37,706 bases of DNA, taken from positions 1 through 37,706 of IMG/VR virus record IMGVR_UViG_3300025132_000112; one strand, 5' to 3'. The stretch comes from a virus. This document shows, piece after piece, positions 5,307 through 7,964 of the stretch (position 1 is its first letter; each line of letters starts with the position of its first letter). Below the pieces are notes generated by a model. That model saw only the letters and a list, made by a program, of their open reading frames with translations, was not told the origin of the DNA and ran no database searches. A program made the position numbers and the translations under genes.

Positions 5307-5575
5307 CGGCAAAACGCGTAGATCACACTGAAGCAAGAATGCCCGCACCTTCCCAGGCTCTCATTAAAGCCTGTGCGAAGGCGGGTTATCTTGCTATGGC
5401 AACGAGTATGGACACGTCATTTGACTACGACTTCACAGATTGGGATGATCTGAAACGATCGTACAGAGAAGTATGGGAGCAGGTTGCTCGCGCTCTGTAT
5501 GCTGTGATCGCCATCCAGGGTGGCGCAATCGTTGAGGAAATCCCTAATGTCCAAAAGCCAGACGAAGAAGAATAA
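5282..5575 (+). CDS. hypothetical phage protein, 97 aa
   Basis: The ATG at 5282 has GGAG about five bases upstream. A later in-frame ATG at 5339 is a weaker alternative. The protein is soluble, basic at the start and acidic at the end (EEIPNVQKPDEEE), with a helical middle (SYREVWEQVARALYAVIAI). No family is recognised. It overlaps the ParB-like gene by 29 bases, which ties it to the modification cassette by expression, though nothing shows a shared function. Confidence 0.55.
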   Translation: MPQKRIKVTAKRVDHTEARMPAPSQALIKACAKAGYLAMATSMDTSFDYDFTDWDDLKRSYREVWEQVARALYAVIAIQGGAIVEEIPNVQKPDEEE

Positions 5576-6236
5576 AGCATCAGGCCTAACCGTTCAAAGT
5601 GTGCCAGTCGACTCTTTGACGAATGACCAGAAGAATGCCAGAGAGCATAGCCATCACAACATGGAAGCGATCAAAGAGTCTCTGAGGCGATGGGGTCTTC
5701 AGAAACCAATCGTGGTTGACCATCAGAACGTGGTTATCGCTGGTAACGGCACGTTGGCGGCTGCTCGAGAACTTGGTTGGGAAAACATCGACATCGTTCG
5801 AACGGACCTAACAGAAGCCGAAAAAATGGGATACGCGATTGCCGACAACAGGACGTCGGAGTTGTCTGATTGGGACGAAATCCAGCTTGCTGCCACTCTT
5901 CAAGAGATCGCCATCGAGGACATCGCTTCTACAGGGTTCAGCCAAAACGATCTCAACAAGATGTTGAACAAGATCACAAAGACACTAGAACTTCGAATGG
6001 AAGAAGACGACACGTTGGGAACCACCAGTGACCCAGGGCTGTCTAGGACGATGCCGAACGTCAAGACAGATGCCCCTTCTTCCCACGTCCGCATGGTTCA
6101 ACTGTACTTTGACGTAGAATCGATCGAGATTTACCTCGACATGTTGAAAATGGCTGCCGAAGTCTTGGAAACGGACAACCCGACAGATACGGTATTGGCG
6201 GCTCTTGAGAAAGTGACAACACATGAAAACGATTGA
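5547..6236 (+). CDS. ParB/Srx-fold nuclease-like protein, 229 aa
   Basis: The N-terminal part carries a ParB-like domain: VPVDSLTND (about 18-26), the helix NMEAIKESLRRWGLQKPIVV, then VIAGNGTLAAARELGW, then a Y-IADNRTSELSDWD segment. The box that is GERR in chromosomal ParB reads GNGT here, a variant I associate with phage ParB-like proteins near terminases. The C-terminal half (about 130-229) has no recognised domain. The start at 5547 has GAGGAA at 5534-5539. The open frame reaches back to a GTG at 5520. ParB-like proteins bind or cut DNA or hydrolyse CTP, and which applies here cannot be told. Its place directly before the dioxygenase suggests a partner in DNA modification or packaging. 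Confidence 0.8.
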   Translation: MSKSQTKKNKASGLTVQSVPVDSLTNDQKNAREHSHHNMEAIKESLRRWGLQKPIVVDHQNVVIAGNGTLAAARELGWENIDIVRTDLTEAEKMGYAIADNRTSELSDWDEIQLAATLQEIAIEDIASTGFSQNDLNKMLNKITKTLELRMEEDDTLGTTSDPGLSRTMPNVKTDAPSSHVRMVQLYFDVESIEIYLDMLKMAAEVLETDNPTDTVLAALEKVTTHEND

Positions 6237-7149
6237 AGCCAAGCGTCATTTGACCGATGAAGAAGCTGGGGAATTGGCCGGCAAGCAGTTGACCGAAGCT
6301 TCCTACGACACCGTAGTGAGGGAAGACACCCTGGTTCTGGACGAAGAAGGCAAGCTTCTCGCTAGGTACATACCTAACATCATCCCAACATCATTGATTC
6401 GCCAGGGTTATGACGCGTTGAATGACGCAGCAGGTTCCACCGACAACAGGGGTATTGCTGCTGGTATCAATGAGGATATGACGTCTGAATCAAATGAGAA
6501 AGTTGTGAAATGGCGAGCTGTCAAGAAAGACGGCACCATGAGCAACACAAATCGGGCTGCGAGCGTGATGTCTGGAATAGTCGGGTATTTCGACCGGACT
6601 CCGAGAATGCCATATTGCCGACAAACCAGTTACACAGTCAAGAACCGCGATAAATACGAATCTGCGATCCCGATGATTGAGTTCATCTCCCAAGCGTTCA
6701 AAGACAACGTTCCAGAGCTGTATTCAAACCAAGAATCAGTGGTCAAAGAAACGTCTCCAGACTTCGTGATCGGCGATTCGGTGTTCACGACAGTCACCGT
6801 CAATGCCAACTGGCAAACCGCAGCCCACAAAGACCAGGGCGATTATCCCGACGGTTGCGGAGTAATGACCGCTATGGAAGCCGGATACTACGAGGGTTGT
6901 TTGACCTGTTTCCCTGAATACCGGTTGGCGGTAGACATGAGAACTAGGGGCATCTTGTTCGCTAATGTCCACAAATGGCATGGAAACACGCCTTTCTATG
7001 GACACCCTGGCCAATATCGGCGTTTGGCGTTGGTTCTTTACTACCGAGACAAGATGAAACATTGCGGCTCAGCGTCTGATGAAGTGGACCGGGCGAAGAA
7101 CCGGAGCCACAACAACCCTATGGGTGGAGAAGGGACGTCGCTGACATGA
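6223..7149 (+). CDS. TET/JBP-family 2-oxoglutarate/Fe(II) dioxygenase (DNA base hydroxylase), 308 aa
   Basis: Enzymes of this family oxidise the 5-methyl group of thymine (JBP) or 5-methylcytosine (TET) in DNA using iron, oxygen and 2-oxoglutarate. The core is clear: AAHKDQGDYPDG contains the HxD iron motif (His202, Asp204), then LTCFPEYRLAVDMRTRG, then HKWHGNTP with the distal His253, and RRLALVLYYR supplying the Arg (266/267) expected to hold 2-oxoglutarate. The first 190 residues probably form the rest of the double-stranded beta-helix and a variable N-terminus. It overlaps the ParB-like gene by 14 bases and the glycosyltransferase by ATGA. Sequence alone does not settle T versus 5mC. The phage's own C5-methyltransferase makes 5mC plausible. 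Confidence 0.87.
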   Translation: MKTIEAKRHLTDEEAGELAGKQLTEASYDTVVREDTLVLDEEGKLLARYIPNIIPTSLIRQGYDALNDAAGSTDNRGIAAGINEDMTSESNEKVVKWRAVKKDGTMSNTNRAASVMSGIVGYFDRTPRMPYCRQTSYTVKNRDKYESAIPMIEFISQAFKDNVPELYSNQESVVKETSPDFVIGDSVFTTVTVNANWQTAAHKDQGDYPDGCGVMTAMEAGYYEGCLTCFPEYRLAVDMRTRGILFANVHKWHGNTPFYGHPGQYRRLALVLYYRDKMKHCGSASDEVDRAKNRSHNNPMGGEGTSLT

Positions 7150-7964
7150 GTTTCCACGTAGCAATCAAGACTTACCAGAGATACCAGGGTGCCAAAGACA
7201 AGACCCTGAAGATGCTGGCCGAATACGGTATTCCAGAGGATAAGATCACTCTGTTTGTAGTCGACCAGGCCGAAGCGGATGCGTATTCAGAAGCACTGGG
7301 CAACTGGGGAGGAAACATCATCCAAAGCGGTAAAGGGATCAAAAGCGCAGTCCGGGCTTTCCGTTCCTATCAACCGCCAGGGGAACGAGTCCTACACATC
7401 GACGATGACGTTACTGCTGTCAAGAAGAAGGTGGGCGAGAATGCCCTTGAGCCTATTTCTGACCTGTCTGAATACGTCAATCAGATGTTCGAGATCACAG
7501 AATCCCACGGAGCCAGGATGTGGGGAATCTACCCAGTTCAAAATGCGTTCTTTATGCGTGAGCACGTGACCCAAGGCCTGAGATTCTGCTGCGCGATCTT
7601 CCACGGATTCATCTCTGACGGTGGCAGGGACATCAACCTGTTCTCAGAATGCGAGTACAAAGAGGATTTTGAGCAGACTATCAAGCATTTCATGACCGAT
7701 GGCTCTGTGGTCCGGGACGAAGCTGTGACAATCAAGACAGCGTATTACAAGAAAGGCGGAGGCGGAACCGCTAGTGCAGGCGTCGAAAAGAGAGACGAGT
7801 TGCATAAACTCGCTGCAGAAACACTATCATCCAGATACCCGGACTACTGCTACATGGCAAAAAAGAAGGGCTACGGGGGAGTAGATATTCGACTCAGACG
7901 TATGCCTTATGAGAAACTATGCTTATCACCAGCAAAAACGAGTCAAACGTATGCCCAAACCTGA
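7146..7964 (+). CDS. TET/JBP-associated glycosyltransferase (TAGT-type), 272 aa
   Basis: This looks like the GT-A-fold glycosyltransferases that accompany TET/JBP enzymes in phages and include the base J transferase relatives. The N-terminus has the nucleotide-sugar fold start (FHVAIKTYQRY), the acidic metal site HIDDDV (Asp86-88), the family-like segment WGIYPVQNAFFM (about 126-137), a central E--YKEDFEQTIKHFM, and an aromatic-glycine YYKKGGGG loop near residue 200. The predicted role is adding a sugar to the hydroxymethyl base made by the preceding enzyme. The sugar donor cannot be read from the sequence. The start overlaps the dioxygenase stop (ATGA) with a GGAGAAGGG site upstream, so the two are translationally coupled. 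Confidence 0.82.
   Translation: MSFHVAIKTYQRYQGAKDKTLKMLAEYGIPEDKITLFVVDQAEADAYSEALGNWGGNIIQSGKGIKSAVRAFRSYQPPGERVLHIDDDVTAVKKKVGENALEPISDLSEYVNQMFEITESHGARMWGIYPVQNAFFMREHVTQGLRFCCAIFHGFISDGGRDINLFSECEYKEDFEQTIKHFMTDGSVVRDEAVTIKTAYYKKGGGGTASAGVEKRDELHKLAAETLSSRYPDYCYMAKKKGYGGVDIRLRRMPYEKLCLSPAKTSQTYAQT

Follow-up and report, generated by a model that had tools for sequence, protein, structure and literature searches.

Burke and colleagues reportedly described in 2021 the hypermodification of cytosine by a phage TET dioxygenase together with a C5-cytosine DNA methyltransferase (C5-MTase). Systems in which a phage TET is combined with a glycosyltransferase are said to have been predicted and, for cytosine, shown in work by Iyer in 2013 and Burke in 2021. 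TET genes are also found next to ParB-like genes. In phage CaiB a ParB-TET operon lies before the terminase (PMC9302106), and the ParB-TET-aGPT-Pplase2-5hmU kinase operon of Tonitrus (5hmU, 5-hydroxymethyluracil) has been proposed to carry out thymidine hypermodification (PMC11955845). The amino acid:DNA transferase AADT, by its Pfam name, and 5hmU kinase are enzymes of thymidine hypermodification (PMC11955845, PMC6449724), a route for which 5-hydroxymethyldeoxyuridine is considered to enter the DNA of phages M6, ViI and phiW-14 as it is replicated (PMC6449724). In the synthesis of base J, JBP hydroxylates thymine and JGT acts next (PMC8616854). Here we analyze a cassette of three genes, encoding a ParB-like protein, a TET/JBP-family dioxygenase and a glycosyltransferase, at positions 5547..7964 (+ strand) of the viral record IMGVR_UViG_3300025132_000112, whose full 37,706 nucleotides are referred to as the window. 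Sequence comparison and structural models make it rather probable that the cassette serves to hypermodify the DNA of the phage itself, with the TET most likely acting on thymine and glycosylation then yielding a base-J-like base.

The cassette and its three proteins

The TET gene (6223..7149, +) encodes 308 amino acids with H202, D204 and H253 as iron ligands and R267 for 2-oxoglutarate. The protein scored 77.8 bits (E 7e-22) against Tet_JBP PF12851, far above the cut-off of 34.9 bits, and matched phrog_24024 at 1e-66. All four residues are invariant in an alignment of 37 TET homologues, and the iron-site HxD...H and R267 align with their counterparts (HxD, H and R) in human TET2 in a profile alignment. 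Searching solved structures with the single TET or glycosyltransferase sequence gave no match, so profiles and models were needed for both proteins. The AlphaFold2 model of the TET (pLDDT 91) had TET2-DNA as its best solved match (Z 22.1, root mean square deviation 3.4, 259 aligned residues), followed by NgTET1 (Z 19.6), CMD1, CcTet and then the AlkB group from Z 14.8 down. The placement of TET2 and NgTET1 ahead of the AlkB group supports a TET-type double-stranded beta-helix fold. By family, motifs and fold, the 6223-7149 product is thus a TET/JBP enzyme with predicted dioxygenase activity. No relative turned up when bacterial genomes were scanned with the TET alignment. Several public phage TET genes (L007, L009, L010 and L004) are labelled 'SNF2 DNA repair protein' or 'DnaJ chaperone', apparently by misannotation.

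To place this TET, we took the best 80 from 573 viral contigs that encode related TETs, the identity being about 40-45%, so that the sample represents the neighbourhood of the window rather than phage TETs overall. Two close relatives and named phages were added, and 71 relatives of the Melnitz TET served as a control set; the comparison set overall held about 150 relatives. On the evidence of gene neighbours and sequence, phage TETs fall into a ParB-linked class, to which the window belongs, and an MTase-linked class. In the ParB class, 77 loci leave space for a gene before the TET, and in 70 of these a ParB gene stands directly upstream, usually overlapping the TET; a C5-MTase occurs in 2 of the 50 whole records searched. 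HTVC112P, P12024L, Altadena, S-CBWM1, Cr30, DLP_6 and C48C1, searched whole, had no C5-MTase; a whole-genome search of Melnitz found one. A rough background figure comes from 50,697 phage records, of which 1445 show a match of any kind to the methyltransferase of the window. In the MTase-linked class, 62 loci have such space and 61 of them carry the C5-MTase directly upstream of the TET; ParB was found in none of the 71 loci. In a quick tree of 103 TETs, with long branches for some rows, the MTase-linked TETs form one clade (SH-aLRT 99) and the ParB-linked TETs, including that of the window, lie outside it. The two classes share the catalytic residues and D207 and differ at positions 132, 135, 192, 199, 249, 255 and 275, which are otherwise fixed. 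Position 275 is Arg in 83 of 83 ParB-class TETs versus Asp in 95% of the MTase-linked class. It aligns with H1904 of TET2 in a HMMER alignment, a residue that contacts the base.

The ParB-like gene (5547..6236, +; 229 amino acids) most likely starts at the ATG at 5547, which follows TTGAGGAAATCCCTA and has a good ribosome site upstream. Its product scored 30.1 bits against ParB_N PF02195 (cut-off 26.3), a profile that matches 17 of 17 aligned TET-linked ParBs. A profile built from the TET-linked ParBs matches the structures of Noc and ParB and, weakly, sulfiredoxin and a serine kinase. The C-terminal region is conserved among these proteins as the block SxVRMVQLxxx...TDTVxxAxE. The corresponding strand-helix-TDTV-helix arrangement (window 5980-6236) is ribbon-helix-helix-like in look and has no Pfam match. 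ParB-type proteins are nucleotide-dependent DNA clamps, as established for Noc and ParB. Given this background and the profile matches, loading or guiding of the TET is the most natural guess for the role of the ParB-like protein. Most relatives keep GHxR at the nucleotide-binding GxxR motif; the window protein has GNGT, which makes its use of a nucleotide uncertain.

The third gene (7146..7964, +) encodes a glycosyltransferase of 272 amino acids. Its score against TAGT PF20691, 18.9 bits (E 0.0015), is below the curated cut-off of 27.5, and we therefore term it a TAGT homologue rather than a full member. The TAGT profile matches 13 of 13 aligned homologues of this protein (best 5.5e-23). The homologue L075, 30% identical, scores 37.0 bits. 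Further matches were to phrog_25200 (7e-25) and to phrog_842, the beta-glucosyl-HMC-alpha-glucosyltransferase family. Acidic pairs and a glycine pair are conserved in the alignment: D86-D88, within the DDD at 86-88, E173-D174 and G205-G206. The model (pLDDT 86.5) matched many GT-A enzymes at Z ~14, the best hits among solved structures being glycosyltransferases of the sugar, lipid or protein type. Among viral models in BFVD the best match is the TET-linked glycosyltransferase of Synechococcus phage S-CBWM1 (E 3e-25). A viral-contig search with this protein alone found no close relative, and the alignment of its homologues proved too heterogeneous for use in scanning. Sequence and model together mark it as a divergent TAGT homologue with a GT-A fold and an acidic DxD-type motif.

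The three genes are tightly packed. The TET start lies within the 3' end of the ParB gene with a 14-base overlap, and the ATGA at 7146-7149 joins the TET stop to the glycosyltransferase start. Downstream, a DUF5681 gene (7951..8316, +; PF18932; start taken from comparison with the close relative L001) borders the cassette, and the terminase large subunit follows (8618..10096, +; phrog_38, E 5e-62; PF17289). Of the 45 relatives whose sequence extends 5 kb downstream, at least 31 likewise have the cassette just upstream of the terminase, 0.5-3.1 kb away. This position is compatible with modification late in infection, before packaging, and is silent on mechanism. The sequence-only reading of this stretch had proposed a ParB-like, TET/JBP and TAGT trio, coupled at the TET-glycosyltransferase junction by ATGA and placed right before the packaging genes, with the HxD...H site and 2-oxoglutarate Arg in the TET. 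Gene calls with Pfam and PHROG matches agree with this arrangement and with the TET assignment. For TAGT, the homology, the GT-A fold, the DDD motif and the adjacency to the TET hold; membership by the protein's own profile score does not.

Tailoring genes and exchange within the lineage

The genes after the TET vary widely in the ParB class. Across 77 loci, a P-loop kinase was found in 45, an AADT-family gene in 36, a class II glutamine amidotransferase in 29, TAGT in 15 and an FkbM methyltransferase in 10, along with acetyltransferases. Ploopntkinase3 matched 8 of 11 kinases checked, and Pfam AADT (PF18724) was found independently in 18 of 47 ParB-class records. No locus of the 77 combined a kinase or AADT gene with TAGT (Fisher p 5e-7 for kinase versus TAGT, relatedness ignored), an exclusivity that is expected if both compete for the same hydroxyl. 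At least 14 changes of tailoring-gene state are required on the TET tree. Elsewhere, ParB-TET operons include genes for an amidoligase-like protein, an NAD(P)-binding protein and a glutamine amidotransferase (L020 9592-10467; L047 9600-10388; L078 3668-4285), which suggests further base decorations.

Exchange can be followed among the closest relatives of the window. L001 (genome G001) is the nearest, with 96% identity for ParB, 96% for TET, 97.5% for DUF5681 and 94% for terminase. In the same pair the glycosyltransferases are 29% and the methyltransferases 59% identical. The DNA match between the two breaks off precisely with the stop codon of the TET and picks up again at the next gene; by sequence, the glycosyltransferase alone has been exchanged between near-identical phages. 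Another relative, L174, has a glycosyltransferase 65% identical to that of the window. In the sister phage L172 (terminase 85%), ParB, TET and glycosyltransferase are missing as one clean block between the same neighbours, an upstream open reading frame (ORF) of 95 amino acids being followed directly by the DUF5681 gene. L172 keeps a C5-MTase at the equivalent place. The empty site in L172 and the divergent glycosyltransferase in L001 thus indicate that the cassette comes and goes as a unit, that the glycosyltransferase swaps alone and that the methyltransferase is inherited separately.

Other parts of the window were also seen to vary. The stretch from DUF5681 to the terminase holds, as judged by eye, a PAPS-reductase-like ORF in L001 (7751-8617) and a DPPW-type methyltransferase-like ORF in L173 (1991-2554); the window has neither there. 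At 8320-8670 the window encodes a short membrane-like protein whose end, PAPGTLVLFGAALLPFRTRKRR, resembles a PEP-CTERM sorting signal and may hint at the host group. Positions 22357-30778, probably tail and host-recognition genes, differ greatly from G001, from 26% identity down to no match, between flanks that are ~90% identical. A gene at 1790-2347 with a weak pyrimidine-dimer glycosylase match (PF03013, phrog_624) was not found in G001. Within the C5-MTase gene, the +1 frame holds an ORF of 203 amino acids (2540-3151) matching phrog_1008 at 1.7e-27, which is also open in L001, L172 and L002 and is matched by 109 phage records. Codon-position and four-fold-site counts were mixed on dual coding, and an overprinted gene is possible.

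The base that is modified

The enzyme identities given in the sequence-only reading are supported, as is its general idea that a 5-methylpyrimidine in DNA would be oxidized and then glycosylated. In the mechanism that we favour, the TET-type oxygenase would act on DNA after replication and hydroxylate a pyrimidine at its 5-methyl group, most likely converting thymine to 5-hydroxymethyluracil. The ParB-like protein may act as a loader of the oxygenase onto DNA or as its guide, and the TAGT-like enzyme would move a sugar from a host nucleotide-sugar onto the hydroxyl of 5-hydroxymethyluracil to give a base-J-like glycosylated base. The glycosylated base would block host nucleases. Nuclease protection is the usual role of such DNA modifications, and it fits the rapid exchange of glycosyltransferase and methyltransferase.

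The choice of thymine draws on the pairing with ParB, the rarity of C5-MTase in the ParB class, the separate clade of the MTase-linked TETs, the residue at position 275 and the empty site in L172, and also on the tailoring genes. The MTase-linked class has a kinase in 28 of 71 loci and TAGT in 10 of 71, and AADT was found in none of the 71. Kinase and TAGT thus occur in both classes and AADT in the ParB class only, so that among these genes AADT alone speaks for thymine; a kinase as proof of thymine was rejected, as it also follows MTase-linked TETs. No dUMP/dCMP hydroxymethylase was found in the AADT records except Cr30, and in the others the hydroxymethyl group therefore has no visible source but the TET. 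The window genome (G000) has neither AADT PF18724 nor a thymidylate-synthase-type hydroxymethylase PF00303, and the AADT argument would apply to the ParB class rather than to the window directly.

Several observations weigh against thymine as the substrate. Besides the presence of kinase and TAGT genes in the MTase-linked class, many of the compared records are fragments and the tree has the long branches mentioned above. D207, the position of the NgTET1 residue D234 that contacts 5-methylcytosine (5mC), is Asp in both classes; as a substrate marker it was rejected for that same reason. The base favoured by Arg at position 275 cannot be deduced. Phage TETs assayed so far, by Burke in 2021, reportedly act on 5mC, and 5mC made by the host could be the substrate.

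The C5-MTase (2344..3231, +; PF00145, E 1e-45), whose presence on this genome had been noted in the sequence-only reading, was there taken as the source of the substrate. By this cytosine route the methyltransferase makes 5mC at its target sites, the TET oxidizes it to 5-hydroxymethylcytosine and the glycosyltransferase adds the sugar. An intact C5-MTase is indeed encoded by the window and by the two further members of its lineage that carry a TET, MTase-linked phage TETs exist as a class with TAGT at some of their loci, and D207 is kept. Phages in which methyltransferase, TET and glycosyltransferases make glycosylated cytosine have been described (PMC12730594). However, the methyltransferase lies ~3 kb from the TET, whose direct neighbour is ParB; it is retained in L172, where the cassette is missing, and it diverges independently, with 59% identity to its L001 counterpart versus 96% for the TET. 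The ParB-TET class is nearly devoid of C5-MTase, and the window TET lies outside the MTase-linked clade. We therefore find the 2344 methyltransferase not supported as the substrate source and the cytosine route rather unlikely. Thymine, which the sequence-only reading had named as the alternative, fits better than the 5mC route and is not proven.

A phage methyltransferase would not be needed if 5mC produced by the host, or more than one pyrimidine, served as the TET substrate and the glycosyltransferase modified the product. Most ParB-class phages have no C5-MTase, and the nearest folds include solved relatives with bound 5mC DNA, as this reading would have it. It is nevertheless improbable, as replicating phage DNA would presumably be undermethylated by most hosts and the AADT-family genes in the same slot would be left unexplained. 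A glycosyltransferase directed at a non-DNA target (cell surface or virion protein) that follows the TET by chance, as its best solved matches and its low TAGT score might suggest, is highly improbable in view of its ATGA overlap with the TET, the recurrence of its homologues directly after TET in many phages, its closeness in BFVD to the TET-linked enzyme of S-CBWM1 and its replacement of kinase and AADT in the post-TET slot.

Returning to thymine, we offer tentatively a more specific and possible version of that mechanism. A ParB clamp would load a thymine-specific TET, and swappable third genes, be it a glycosyltransferase, a kinase with an amino acid transferase, or a methyltransferase, would set the decoration. 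In the window the product would be glycosyl-hydroxymethyluracil. This base would be the viral equivalent of base J and perhaps its ancestor, and a one-gene swap would change its sugar.

Comparison with known systems

ParB-TET operons are already annotated in CaiB and Tonitrus, and a ParB-TET-glycosyltransferase order in Altadena. We did not find described in the accessible literature the split into ParB- and MTase-linked TETs, the exclusivity among tailoring genes, an empty site in a phage that keeps its methyltransferase, or the single-gene swap of the glycosyltransferase. If the proposal is true, phage TETs would split into cytosine- and thymine-directed classes, separable by their gene neighbours and one base-contact residue. 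They would offer a naturally occurring set of tailoring enzymes that have been exchanged next to an unchanging ParB-TET core, and phages would be a place for a base-J-like pathway outside kinetoplastids. Such enzymes would be useful for DNA labelling and for understanding restriction evasion.

The MTase-TET cytosine cassettes of the Melnitz type have the same TET iron and 2-oxoglutarate residues as the window, and a TAGT-type or kinase gene can follow. They differ in having the C5-MTase directly upstream of the TET, no ParB and a separate TET clade. The Tonitrus and CaiB operons, both from actinophages (PMC11955845, PMC9302106), share with the window a ParB-like and then a TET-like gene as the first DNA-modification genes; downstream, however, they carry a kinase and a pyrophosphorylase/amino acid transferase and no glycosyltransferase. 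In Arthrobacter phage Altadena (genes 60-64, OR521058) the order ParB-like, TET-like, glycosyltransferase is the same and the genome has no C5-MTase, but the TET is very divergent (21% identical), a small gene lies between ParB and TET and a deacetylase gene is added. In the thymidine hypermodification of M6, ViI and phiW-14, the tailoring families (5hmU DNA kinase, AADT) are those that fill the glycosyltransferase slot in relatives of the window, whereas the window itself lacks both the AADT and the thymidylate-synthase-type enzyme of that route. Although the kinetoplastid base J pathway (JBP1/2, JGT) is eukaryotic and its JBP1 has a J-DNA-binding domain, it shares with the window a TET/JBP hydroxylase followed by a glycosyltransferase, and the predicted product of the window cassette would be a glycosyl-hydroxymethyluracil.

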